A DNA stretch of 64,000 bases from Gammaproteobacteria bacterium (GTDB taxonomy: Bacteria; Pseudomonadota; Gammaproteobacteria; Steroidobacterales; XN24). The position numbers and the translations under genes are program-made. Below are positions 36,135 through 40,489 of this stretch, in pieces (the stretch's first letter is position 1; every line of letters starts with the position of its first letter). Location: NCBI GenBank assembly GCA_020341735.1, contig CP070833.1, forward strand, positions 2,543,029-2,607,028, written 5' to 3'. The notes below the pieces were generated by a model. The model had not been told where the DNA came from. It saw only the letters and a list, made by a program, of their open reading frames with translations, and ran no database searches.

Positions 36135-36167
36135 ACCCCGCCGATGGTTTAGAGACCAAACCGGGGT
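36135..36167. repeat. Long imperfect hairpin upstream of the pilus leader
   Basis: ACCCC then, after a 6-base bulge, GGTTT pairs with AAACCGGGGT over 10 bp, closing a 7-base loop. It lies between the Nudix start and the pilus promoter, with no T tract on either side. Nothing else is recognisable in 36000-36290, which contains no gene I can support. Confidence 0.5.
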
Positions 36168-36296
36168 GCGCAGGGGTCAATCGCATTTTATGGGCATTCC
36201 TCCCCATCTATAGAAATTAGACCCATTCGAAATTAGGCCGCCATTCGGTGCTTATGTAAAAAACTTGAACGGGGTCTCAATTCTGGCATTAAGCAA

Positions 36297-36326
36297 TTGA
36301 CCTAACATAATGATTTACACCATAGT
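36297..36326 (+). promoter_or_regulatory. Sigma70-type promoter for the pilus operon
   Basis: TTGACC (36297-36302) and CATAGT (36321-36326) are spaced by 18 bp and match the consensus at 5/6 and 4/6. Transcription would begin near 36333, so the whole riboswitch and the hairpin just 5' of it lie in the transcript. Confidence 0.55.
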
Positions 36327-36347
36327 TTGCGTGTCTCGAAGCCGGAT

Positions 36348-36441
36348 GGTTTCGACAAAGGCAAACCCGCCGCGAGGTGGGGACGCAAAGCCACAGGTCT
36401 CCGACCAAGGACAAATTGGAGACGGCTGAGCTACCGAGATC
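36348..36441 (+). ncRNA. Cyclic-di-GMP-I (GEMM) riboswitch
   Basis: The aptamer core is clear: GGCAAACC, then a P2 stem (CCCGCC/GGTGGG) capped by a GCGA tetraloop, then GGGACGCAAAGCC. A P3 stem (GTCTCC/GGAGAC) and GGCTGAGCTACCG follow; the GNRA loop and its receptor side are hallmarks of the class. P1 can form between GGTTTCG (36348-36354) and CGAGATC (36435-36441). The aptamer ends 7 bp before the GGAG ribosome site of the pilin gene, which suggests translational control. No terminator follows, so the sign of regulation cannot be read directly. Confidence 0.9.
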
Positions 36442-36459
36442 ATTACCGGAGAAAGGACA

Positions 36460-36948
36460 ATGAAATCACGCAATCTAAAAGCGCTCCGAGCAATCGGCGC
36501 TACGGCCACTCTCACCGGCATTCTTGTCATCCCAGCCGCCATGGCCGCTACGGCCACCGGTACCTTCCAGGTGACGGCTGAAGTCCAGGCCCAGTGCGAA
36601 GTAGATACGTCAACGACTGATATGGATTTTGGAGTCATTGATGTATCTGCTGACAATGACGCAACTTCCAGCCTTGCGTACCGATGCACGGCGGGAACAC
36701 AGCCAGACGCCGCGTTGACTTACAGCCAGATGAGCGGCACCGGTGGCAACCTTGCTTACACGTTGTACCAGGATGCCCCGGGCGGTGTGGTCTGGAGTGA
36801 CACCAGCACTCAGACGCTGCCTGCGGCGACCGGATTCGGGACTGCCGATACGGTGACCGTGTATGGACGAGTTACGGCATTGAATGCCAGTATCGCAGGC
36901 GTCGGCAACGACTACAGCGACACCGTGACCGTCACTCTCACGTTCTGA
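36460..36948 (+). CDS. Csu-type major pilin (spore coat U domain)
   Basis: A 162-residue exported pilin. The signal peptide is cleaved near AMAATA, and a spore coat U (SCPU) immunoglobulin-like domain follows, with paired cysteines (QCEVD; YRCTAG) and a C-terminal TVTVTLTF strand used in donor-strand exchange. It is the first gene of a four-gene chaperone-usher operon directly under the c-di-GMP riboswitch. Members such as CsuA/B form biofilm pili. One major pilin is seen here, fewer than in Acinetobacter csu. Confidence 0.88.
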   Translation: MKSRNLKALRAIGATATLTGILVIPAAMAATATGTFQVTAEVQAQCEVDTSTTDMDFGVIDVSADNDATSSLAYRCTAGTQPDAALTYSQMSGTGGNLAYTLYQDAPGGVVWSDTSTQTLPAATGFGTADTVTVYGRVTALNASIAGVGNDYSDTVTVTLTF

Positions 36949-36952
36949 GCTG

Positions 36953-37684
36953 ATGAGCACTGAGGGAAGGAGGGGGGCGGTCCTGCTGGCCGTTCTCCCT
37001 CTTTTTTTTCTGGCAGCCATCGCGCAGGGCGCGTCGATCGGCATCGCGCCGGTGCGGGTCAACTTCGAGCCGGCTGACCGTAGCCAGGTGGTAACGCTCA
37101 CCAATGGCGGAACCGAGCCCGTATCCATGCAGGCCGACCCCCGACTGTGGGTGCAGGATGAGCAGGGAGGCGACGTCTATTCGGAGACGTCGGACTTGCT
37201 CGTGGTGCCGCGCATCTTCACCATCGCGCCGGGCGCATCACAGGTTGTACGAATCGGCCGACTAACTCTCAGCAATATCCCACGGGAGCAGGCCTACCGG
37301 GTTTTCTTCACCGAACTGGCGCCAGGCGAGGAGAGCGGCTCCCAACTGCAATTCCGTCTTCGTTTGGCCATTCCGGTCTTCATGGCTCCGGCGGGCCGCA
37401 GCGAGCCGCGGCTCGAGTTATTGCAGGCCGGTCACACGGAGGAGGGTTTCGAAGTCGTGCTGGGGAATACCGGAAATACCCACGTGCAGGTGCTCGAACT
37501 GAGCGGGAATCCGGTGGCTGACTACCCGGCGGAGAAGCCGCCTCGCATCGCCGGCGGTTACATGTTGCCGGGTACAAGTCGCCGATTCTTGTTGCCGATC
37601 CCGCAGCACATTGTCGTGACTTCTGTGAAAGCCGAGACGGACGTGGCGGGGAACCTAGAGTATGGACTCTCTCCGCCGGATTAG
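36953..37684 (+). CDS. Fimbrial chaperone (PapD/CsuC-like)
   Basis: A 243-residue periplasmic pilus chaperone. After the signal peptide (ending ...IAQGA) it starts ASIGIAPVRVNFEPADRSQV, the first G1-strand region. Two Ig-like domains follow, with NIPREQAYRVFFTEL before the second. It caps pilin subunits in the periplasm and hands them to the usher. It follows the pilin by 4 bp, and its 3' end overlaps the usher by 23 bp. Confidence 0.93.
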   Translation: MSTEGRRGAVLLAVLPLFFLAAIAQGASIGIAPVRVNFEPADRSQVVTLTNGGTEPVSMQADPRLWVQDEQGGDVYSETSDLLVVPRIFTIAPGASQVVRIGRLTLSNIPREQAYRVFFTELAPGEESGSQLQFRLRLAIPVFMAPAGRSEPRLELLQAGHTEEGFEVVLGNTGNTHVQVLELSGNPVADYPAEKPPRIAGGYMLPGTSRRFLLPIPQHIVVTSVKAETDVAGNLEYGLSPPD

Positions 37685-40046
37685 GATTTTTGCATTTATC
37701 GCTTGCCTGTTGTTCGGCGGGCGCGGCGCGGCATCCGACTTCGAGATGCTTATGGTGGAAGTGTCGCTCAATCAGAGCACGCCCGGTCCGGCTTTCGTTC
37801 TACGGGATGCGGATGGCGGGTACTGGATCGAGGAAGAGGTCATTGATGCCTGGCGTATCAACGGACACCGGCCGCCGGCGGTAGAGCATCGCGGCATGCG
37901 CTTCTTCCCCATCACCGGTTTCGAAGGCAGCACGAGCCGATTCGATCAGGCCCGCGTCCGATTAGATATCACGATTCCCCCCCGCTTCATCAAGGGACAG
38001 GTGCGTTCGGTTCGGCATGATGTCGAGACGCCGGCCTCTTCGTCAATCGGCGTGTTTGCCGACTACGATCTCGCCTACCAGGAAGTTGCTCGCGGCGGCA
38101 ACGGACTGTTCACTGCTCTTCTGGAACCCACGTTTTTCAGTCCCGCAGGTGTTTTGCGCAACGCCGTCCTTTACCGCCATGGCGATTACGATACCGATGA
38201 CGATTCCGTCTGGCAGGACTATGAGGACGATGCTGGCGATGAGGATCGGGACGGGCTGATCCGCTTGGAGAGTACATGGGTGAAGGACGACCCGGTTAAG
38301 CTCAGGAGCCTGAGGCTGGGCGATACGATTCTGGCTCCCGGCATGCTGGGTTCGGCCGCTCGCTTCGGCGGAATACAGCTGGCAACGAATTTTGATACGC
38401 GACCCGACCTGGTCACTTTTCCTCTACCGCAATTTGCTGGCGAGGCCTTGATGGACTCGACGGTAGAGCTGTACGTCGATGGGCAACTCGCTTTGTCCGA
38501 TGACATCGGCTCCGGACCCTTCCGATATAACGAAATTCCTGTTGTCAACGGGGCAGGGCAGCTGAGCGTTGTGACCCGCGACCTTACCGGTCGGGAGCAG
38601 GTCGTAGTGACCGACTTCTACGCCAGTCAGCGACTCCTTCGCAAAGGGCTGTCGGAATACTCCTACAGCCTGGGGTCATTACGGGATGACTACGGCGTTG
38701 AGAGCAACGACTACGACGACGTATTTGTCTCAGGGTTCCACCGTTACGGCATCAACGATTACCTGACCATCGAGGGGCAGGCGCAGACCTCCGGCGAGAT
38801 CAGCCGATTGGGCACCGGTGTCACCTGGGCCCTGCCACGCATTGGGGTCACTTCAATCGGCGTCGGCGTTAGCCAGGCAAATTCGGCCGATACGGGAGCA
38901 GAGACTTTTTTTGCCCACGAGTACCGGACCCGAAGGTACCGCGCGAATCTCGCCGTCCGCCATTCGAGCCAGGACTACCGCCAGATCAATGATGATGAAG
39001 ACCGGTCGCGGGTGAAGCTGTTCGCCACTCTCGGCGGTGGCGTTAGCTTCGACCGCTACGGCTCTCTTTCGGCCGCGGTCGGTCGACGCGAATTTCACGA
39101 TGACGGTTCCGACCTCAATCTCGTCAGTCTGAGCTACTCGAACTCCATCGGCAGGGACTGGTCGCTGGTCGGTTACGGTTCCTATCTTGACAGCGAGAGG
39201 TCGGACTACACGATTGGTATCAGCGTCACACGGTTCCTTGGACAGAGGCGATCCGCCAATACGGACATCAGCCTAAATGATGGGCAACTGCGCGCCCGGG
39301 CGGAGGTCCGATCGTACGTGCCCAGGGGGCAGGGATACGGTTACAGGCTTGCCGCTGGCCGCCAGGGCGACGAGGACCTCTGGGAAGCTGACCTGTCGGC
39401 CAATAGCCGCACCGGACGTTATCGCCTCGAGTCGGATCATAACGACGATGGCCTGTCCTGGCGCGCAAGCGCTGCCGGGTCGGCGGCCTGGATCGGCGGA
39501 ATGCCGTTCTTCACGCGGGAGATCAGGGATGCGTTCGCGGTAGTCAAGGTGAGTGGCTTCGAGGACGTCAGGGTCTACCTGGACAACCAGGAGATGGGCC
39601 GGACGGATGACTCGGGCCGGATACTGCTGCCTGGCCTCCGCCCGTTCGAGCGCAATCGGGTGCGTATCGACTTGGAGGATATTCCACTGGATGCTCGCGT
39701 CGATCGGCTAGAGACGATCGTCACTCCCTATGCCGGCGCCGGGCTGTTGGCCGACTTTCCCGCCAGCGAAAGCACGGACGTCATGCTGCGCTTGTTATTG
39801 CCTGACGGGGCTGTCGCCTCGCAGGGCGGTTACGTGACTCTCGAGGGATCCGAAGAGCGTTTTCCGGTTGGCCTGGAGGGCTCCGTTTATCTAAGAGGCG
39901 TGTCGGACCGCCAGCAGGCCCTGCTGCATTGGCAAGGGCACGGTTGCAGGTTTATGGTGATAATACCGGCCGAATCCGGGCCGGTCCCGGACCTCGGAGA
40001 CATCGGATGCCGATTCGAGTCAGAATCGCAAAACACGCGCCCCTGA
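37662..40046 (+). CDS. Outer-membrane fimbrial usher (CsuD-like)
   Basis: A 794-residue usher. A signal peptide precedes an N-terminal chaperone-binding domain, the beta-barrel, and a plug-like segment (around FRYNEIPVVNGAGQLS). The C-terminal domains follow (VFSV-like; HGCRFMVIIP). It forms the outer-membrane pore that polymerises pilins. Acidic tracts (EDDAGDEDRDG, near residue 190) lie in an extracellular-loop-like segment. It overlaps the chaperone by 23 bp and the tip pilin by 40 bp. Confidence 0.92.
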   Translation: MDSLRRIRIFAFIACLLFGGRGAASDFEMLMVEVSLNQSTPGPAFVLRDADGGYWIEEEVIDAWRINGHRPPAVEHRGMRFFPITGFEGSTSRFDQARVRLDITIPPRFIKGQVRSVRHDVETPASSSIGVFADYDLAYQEVARGGNGLFTALLEPTFFSPAGVLRNAVLYRHGDYDTDDDSVWQDYEDDAGDEDRDGLIRLESTWVKDDPVKLRSLRLGDTILAPGMLGSAARFGGIQLATNFDTRPDLVTFPLPQFAGEALMDSTVELYVDGQLALSDDIGSGPFRYNEIPVVNGAGQLSVVTRDLTGREQVVVTDFYASQRLLRKGLSEYSYSLGSLRDDYGVESNDYDDVFVSGFHRYGINDYLTIEGQAQTSGEISRLGTGVTWALPRIGVTSIGVGVSQANSADTGAETFFAHEYRTRRYRANLAVRHSSQDYRQINDDEDRSRVKLFATLGGGVSFDRYGSLSAAVGRREFHDDGSDLNLVSLSYSNSIGRDWSLVGYGSYLDSERSDYTIGISVTRFLGQRRSANTDISLNDGQLRARAEVRSYVPRGQGYGYRLAAGRQGDEDLWEADLSANSRTGRYRLESDHNDDGLSWRASAAGSAAWIGGMPFFTREIRDAFAVVKVSGFEDVRVYLDNQEMGRTDDSGRILLPGLRPFERNRVRIDLEDIPLDARVDRLETIVTPYAGAGLLADFPASESTDVMLRLLLPDGAVASQGGYVTLEGSEERFPVGLEGSVYLRGVSDRQQALLHWQGHGCRFMVIIPAESGPVPDLGDIGCRFESESQNTRP

Positions 40047-40489
40047 CCTCCGCTGTGGCGGTCACCTTGATGCTGGCCGGTGCTAAGGCTATGGCGGCGC
40101 TGTCGTGCTCTGTGTCGCCCACTCCTGTCAGTTTTGGCCTGTATACCCCCATGTCGGCGACGGATCTGGATTCCACCGGCAACGTGCAGGTCAATTGTGA
40201 TGGCGGCAAGGGCCAGGTGACTATCCAGCTGGGCGCGGGCGCCAGCGGCGACGCCACCGATCGTCGTATGTTTTCTGGCCCCAATACGCTCAGATACAAC
40301 CTTTACGACAGGGCGGCTCGTAACCAGGTCTGGGGCGACGGCGCCGGTGGCACTCGGACCGTAAAATTCAACATCCCGAAGAACCAGCCGGTCACCTACG
40401 ATGCCACAGTCTACGGACGGATCTTCTCGGCACAGAGTCCGTCAGCCGGTTTCTATGTGGACAATATCGTCGTCACCGTATTTTTTTGA
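40007..40489 (+). CDS. Csu-type second (tip/adhesin) pilin
   Basis: About 160 residues from the ATG at 40007, chosen because a signal peptide starts there (cleaved near AMAAL); the frame is open to 39929. A single SCPU domain: LSCSVSPTPVSFGLYTP, then DCNC-type spacing in VNCDGGKG, ending VTVFF. CsuE-type tip proteins have two domains, so this one-domain protein may be a minor or tip subunit. Last gene of the operon. Confidence 0.85.
   Translation: MPIRVRIAKHAPLTSAVAVTLMLAGAKAMAALSCSVSPTPVSFGLYTPMSATDLDSTGNVQVNCDGGKGQVTIQLGAGASGDATDRRMFSGPNTLRYNLYDRAARNQVWGDGAGGTRTVKFNIPKNQPVTYDATVYGRIFSAQSPSAGFYVDNIVVTVFF

Follow-up and report, generated by a model that had tools for sequence, protein, structure and literature searches.

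Gene content and promoter of the pilus operon

The window, by which the whole 64,000-nt stretch of DNA analysed here is meant, contains a four-gene operon encoding an SCPU-domain pilin, a PapD-like periplasmic chaperone, an outer membrane usher and a further SCPU protein whose true start probably lies inside the open reading frame listed in Table 1. The presence of SCPU pilins, chaperone and usher in one operon marks it as an archaic SCPU chaperone-usher pilus operon, and relatives show the same gene order in their SCPU operons. As the initial annotation had proposed from the sequence, these genes directly follow a GEMM-I (c-di-GMP-I) riboswitch aptamer. The distance from the aptamer to the pilin ATG at 36460 is 20 nt, and P1 ends 6 nt 5' of the GGAG of the Shine-Dalgarno (SD) sequence. 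An intrinsic terminator was sought between aptamer and pilin; none was found on the plus strand, and the interval leaves no room for one.

The putative promoter matches the consensus at 9 of 12 positions, and its TTGAC is kept in the nearest relative (locus L052). Its -10-like hexamer CATAGT ends 24 nt 5' of the aptamer, compared with mostly 4-7 nt for such hexamers (CATAGT/CATATT) at other GEMMs of the order, so that the leader hairpin is most simply read as a transcribed insertion between promoter and aptamer. From this promoter, transcription is predicted to start at about 36333, upstream of the leader hairpin; a start 3' of 36343, which would have spoken against the initial annotation, is not what the position of the hexamer suggests. 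The source genome contains a single copy of the promoter region. Positions 36140-36262, which lie between the promoter and the divergent Nudix gene, hold short direct and inverted repeats that resemble a mobile-element relic and are likewise single copy in the genome.

Table 1. Positions of the promoter, leader, aptamer and pilus genes in the window
Feature	Position	Strand	Details
Putative promoter	36297..36326	+	TTGACC 36297-36302, 18-nt spacer, CATAGT 36321-36326
5' leader hairpin	36336..36355	+	arm TCGAAGCC 36336-36343, loop GGAT 36344-36347, arm GGTTTCGA 36348-36355; from folding and recurrence in all eight pilus-operon GEMMs
Leader strand able to extend P1 outward	36342..36347	+	CCGG 36342-36345 pairs with CCGG 36446-36449, covering the first GG of the SD; from folding
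P1 5' strand	36348..36354	+	also within the 3' arm of the leader hairpin; paired with 36435-36441 in the predicted fold; from folding
c-di-GMP-I aptamer (Rfam clan CL00126)	36351..36439	+	Rfam covariance-model matches, folding
Aptamer P2	36366..36381	+	GCGA loop 36372-36375
Aptamer P3	36389..36427	+	
P1 3' strand	36435..36441	+	
Ribosome-binding region CCGGAGAAAGGA	36446..36457	+	GGAG 36448-36451, AAGGA 36453-36457; partner of extended P1
SCPU-domain pilin, first gene of the operon	36460..36948	+	PF05229, E 2.1e-19
PapD-like periplasmic chaperone	36953..37684	+	PF00345, E 2e-16
Outer membrane usher	37662..40046	+	PF00577, E 1.2e-36
Second SCPU protein, likely tip subunit	39929..40489	+	PF05229, E 6.1e-30

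The aptamer and its probable ligand

The check suggested in the initial annotation, a scan with RF01051, gave 63.4 bits (gathering threshold 35), and RF03167 (c-di-GMP-I-GGC) scored 70.9 bits (gathering threshold 59), which bears out the assignment to GEMM-I. The ligand-contact motifs GGC, GACGCAAAG and ACCG are all found, and the residues that we take to be the contacts, G20, A47 and C92 in Vc2 numbering, are matched. In the RF03167 consensus, GACGCGAA, a G replaces A47; the window carries GACGCAAA instead, hence its binding site is of the ordinary G/A/C kind. P2 bears a GCGA (GNRA) loop, while the usual CUAA/UAGG-type receptor is absent from P3, which forms a continuous helix. The ordinary A47 site, together with 12 GGDEF matches and nine further GEMM-I matches elsewhere in the source genome, makes c-di-GMP the most likely ligand.

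A leader hairpin that excludes P1

Just 5' of the aptamer core, the leader forms a hairpin of 8 pairs, one of them G-U, with a GGAT loop. This 20-nt stem-loop has a folding energy of -9.9 kcal/mol (z -3.64), and none of 200 dinucleotide shuffles is equally stable. Its 3' arm contains all 7 nt of the P1 5' strand, so that hairpin and P1 are mutually exclusive; both the hairpin and this exclusion had been recognized in the initial annotation and are confirmed. Its further proposal, that absence of the ligand favours the hairpin, does not follow from thermodynamics alone, since at equilibrium the minimum free energy structure of the window has P1 formed and lengthened across the SD, and the hairpin fold is about 1.8 kcal/mol less stable, a difference within the error of the energy model. 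Prefix folding of the window predicts the hairpin with a probability of about 0.95 up to the point at which the P1 3' strand has been transcribed, and in L052 the same energy model favours the hairpin throughout.

Pilus-operon GEMMs in related bacteria

Searches of related genomes for pilin and usher, followed by Rfam scans at the loci, identified seven further SCPU operons in which a GEMM aptamer immediately precedes the pilin (L052, L053, L054, L056, L084, L085 and L130). Together with the window they span three GTDB families of the order, and the pilins of the four relatives that were aligned are 31-39% identical to that of the window. Most of the SCPU loci L119-L141 and L152-L165 lack a GEMM and contribute nothing to the comparison; at L153, a distant case of a GEMM on an SCPU gene, the 3' spacer is long. 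The operon of the closest genus mate (G001) is cut at a contig end, and in G036 and G103 the available sequence starts only within the pilin or shortly ahead of it.

The distance from the aptamer end to the start codon is 14-29 nt in each of the eight pilus-operon GEMMs, as opposed to mostly 50-400 nt for other GEMMs of the order, and each has a leader hairpin that takes bases of the P1 5' strand into its 3' arm, with sequences that are unrelated between families. This recurrence and the near lack of space for a 3' platform support the 5'-side platform first suggested for the window; the set comprises eight usable loci, of which L085 is a near-duplicate, and it was found by seeking pilus operons and inspected afterwards, which makes the pattern partly post hoc. 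The hairpin of L052, CGGAACC-CCCA-GGUUUCG, has 7 bp and a CCCA loop; both differences from the 5' arm of the window are G-U/A-U exchanges that keep the pairing, while the loop is altered. Between L085 and L130, which represent one family, identity is 76% in the leader (-20..0) and 75% in the aptamer but only about 48% in the DNA further upstream (-80..-21), indicating that the leader is conserved there as part of the RNA element. In L084, L085 and L130, which are related to each other, hairpin and P1 share just about three bases, so the exclusion is partial in these members, and L054 has a poor P1. At L056, positions 852-900 hold a five-codon open frame (ATGGAAACGACACGATAG) 5' of the pilin start that ends right at the SD, and GGAAAC occurs there twice, with both copies capable of forming pairs with the leader loop.

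Within a fixed 22-nt leader, the median energy with which the leader engages the P1 5' strand is -6.6 kcal/mol for the eight pilus-operon loci and -1.6 kcal/mol for the order's 107 other GEMMs (Mann-Whitney p=1.3e-4; p=0.0016 on z-scores). In the fixed 22-nt leaders of the eight loci, hairpins are stronger than in shuffles with a Fisher p=9e-4, although the hairpins of L054 and L056 are individually no better than shuffles in this fixed-window test. The 107 other GEMMs as a group also differ from shuffles (Fisher p=0.003), because a minority of them have strong leader hairpins. When the P1 strand was kept fixed and the remaining leader shuffled at per-locus lengths, the hairpins of the seven loci with a definable P1 were again stronger than expected by chance, with a Fisher p=1.8e-4, and p=3.5e-4 if the near-duplicate L085 was left out. 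The share of shuffles meeting two criteria jointly was not taken as a p-value.

Possible pairing of the leader with the SD and the predicted direction of control

In the window, the leader strand just outside P1 can continue the helix across the beginning of the SD, which yields an extended P1 of 13 bp in total with a 2-nt bulge, a pairing absent from the model of the initial annotation. Folding of L084 and L085 with P1 imposed pairs their leader UCAUUUCC with GGAAAUGA at the SD, and the complement of the SD region lies inside the hairpin; L130 keeps the complement as GUUCC/GGAAC, and L054 can form a long leader:SD duplex. The pairing is not clearly seen in L052 or L053. The shared SD complement of L085 and L130 was considered as strict covariation and dropped, since the pairing register shifts by one. 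Taken by itself, leader:SD pairing is not beyond chance, with a Fisher p=0.08 in leader shuffles and p=0.04-0.22 in leader/SD swaps. Given this weakness as an independent statistic, it is kept as a hypothesis that in several members the hairpin may also hold an SD-complementary strand and that closure of P1 could extend into an SD-masking duplex.

From folding, c-di-GMP would turn the pilin OFF, a direction towards which we lean with some uncertainty: the extended P1 masks the SD, which implies OFF logic, whereas the hairpin-locked fold of the window pairs the start codon, which implies ON logic. An OFF switch for a pilus runs counter to the usual role of c-di-GMP.

Proposed mechanism and alternative explanations

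The recurrence of the hairpin, the statistics on P1-strand engagement and the short 3' spacers are best explained by a 5'-side translational platform, and we consider it somewhat probable, at slightly better than even confidence, that the window carries a translational c-di-GMP class I riboswitch with its expression platform 5' of the aptamer. Transcription would probably begin near 36333, and the first 23 nt of the transcript are expected to fold at once into the hairpin that sequesters the P1 5' strand. After the P1 3' strand and the SD have emerged, P1 could displace the hairpin and would itself be stabilised by the ligand. The leader strand released by closure of P1 could then lengthen this helix into the first bases of the SD (CCGG/CCGG); the predicted default is thus that c-di-GMP reduces pilin translation and that the hairpin state is the ON state. 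More tentatively, and with somewhat less than even confidence, this may be a conserved GEMM-I architecture specific to SCPU pili, in which a single 5' leader strand pairs in three mutually exclusive ways, within its own hairpin, with P1 or with the SD region, and in which the entire platform precedes the aptamer and is transcribed before the ligand can bind.

The alternative that most deserves weight, although we regard it as unlikely, is an ordinary GEMM-I aptamer in which closure of P1 near the SD suffices to change ribosome access, the 5' hairpin being incidental or only protecting the mRNA end against decay. The 6 nt between P1 and the SD would suit such an arrangement, and strong upstream hairpins also occur at some non-pilus GEMMs (L025, L214, L205); however, a hairpin with no more than a protective function would not have to overlap P1, as the hairpin does in eight of eight pilus operons, and the leader shared by L085 and L130 is conserved like the aptamer. 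A 5' platform with the reverse, ON logic appears more unlikely still. Here, the hairpin state would free the P1 3' strand (AUCAUU) to pair with the start codon (AAUGA), and ligand-driven closure of P1 would release the AUG. The start codon of the window is unpaired at 4% in the hairpin-locked fold and at 92% in the P1 fold, the segment 36435-36470 alone folds at -5.5 kcal/mol, the hairpin fold of L053 has a similar GACAA/UUGUC pairing around the start, and ON control would agree with the role that c-di-GMP usually has in adhesion. Yet the local stem is weak, with 16 of 200 shuffles as good, the SD of the window is more open in the hairpin state than in the P1 state (0.71 vs 0.51), and L085 has an open SD (0.96) in its hairpin state.

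Two further explanations carry little weight. By inspection, the 5' strand of P3 has six bases (UCUCCG, 36399-36404) complementary to CGGAGA at 36447-36452 and might mask the SD as a conventional platform that uses an aptamer strand, but this would require opening of the stable 8-bp P3 helix and is absent from the predicted folds; with about 4 bp left by eye in L052 and L053, it was rejected as not conserved and is very improbable. Scarcely credible at all is a reading of the dyad as a DNA operator for a regulator rather than an RNA hairpin: TCGAAGCC-N4-GGTTTCGA is a near-perfect DNA palindrome immediately 3' of the promoter, but its mismatch at the DNA level is a G-U pair in RNA, differently positioned in L052, and the dyad sequences of the other members are unrelated.

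Other GEMM-I loci

Apart from the pilus operons, the loci examined include 18 distinct copies of a GEMM-I subclass whose P3 carries an almost invariant extension of about 35 nt (CACGGGUCCUCGCUUCCUCCGnGA ... CGAAGGACCCcAAGAUCGCCGGGCUGCC), namely L066, L177, L179, L184, L193, L222, L223, L226, L228-L232, L234-L237 and L062, the last of which lies in the source genome (C1:246371-246432) and is interrupted by a run of N. In L066, L179, L228 and L229 of this subclass, the core pair beside the ligand site, presumably G21-C46 in Vc2 numbering, is swapped to C21-G46 (AAAGCCAAA ... GACGGAAAGCC). Tandem GEMM-I aptamers about 140-160 nt apart, mostly 5' of a predicted lipoprotein gene, are found in the source genome (L001/L003, C1:466496-466809) and recur across genera (G001, G002, G004, G005, G006, G036). 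In the source genome and relatives, a GEMM-I aptamer also lies 237-324 nt 5' of a gene whose product has, by eye, a PilM-like start (type IV pili; L004, L065, L167, L221).

Comparison with known riboswitches

Expression platforms are usually sought 3' of the aptamer. Within the collection of papers covered, which did not extend to subscription literature, a phrase search for "upstream expression platform" found no paper, and a full-text search judged by titles found none that links a c-di-GMP riboswitch to chaperone-usher pili. If the proposed mechanism is true, leader sequence that annotation omits may control riboswitches whose 3' spacer is very short, the kinetic logic would change as the switch element folds ahead of the sensor, and an archaic pilus operon would be under direct control by c-di-GMP at the RNA level.

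The GEMM-I aptamer, translational control by GEMM-I and competition between helices in the ligand-free state are already known. With the c-di-GMP-I riboswitches of clan CL00126 (RF01051, RF03167), the window shares the aptamer core, the P1/P2/P3 layout, the GNRA loop of P2 and the G20/A47/C92 contacts, and it differs from them in the upstream hairpin that competes with P1 and would replace a 3' platform, with the start codon only 20 nt off. PMC9262584, with reference to Inuzuka 2018, describes how Vc2 of Vibrio cholerae acts as an OFF switch of translation. As far as that account goes, Vc2 resembles the window in being a translational GEMM-I riboswitch in which the stability of P1 is central and the ribosome-binding site is masked; judging by the cited title, Vc2 masks a ribosome-binding site distant from the aptamer, whereas in the window this site is adjacent and the competing strand lies 5'. 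A parallel for the helix exchange is the translational add adenine riboswitch of Vibrio vulnificus, in which the ligand-free form apoB replaces aptamer helices by the alternative helices P1B and P2B (PMC5847336). Both systems would set alternative helices against aptamer helices in the ligand-free state, but in add the switch strand comes from the 3' side of P1 and pairs into a 3' P4 domain, while in the window it is the 5' side of P1 that would be captured by the leader hairpin.
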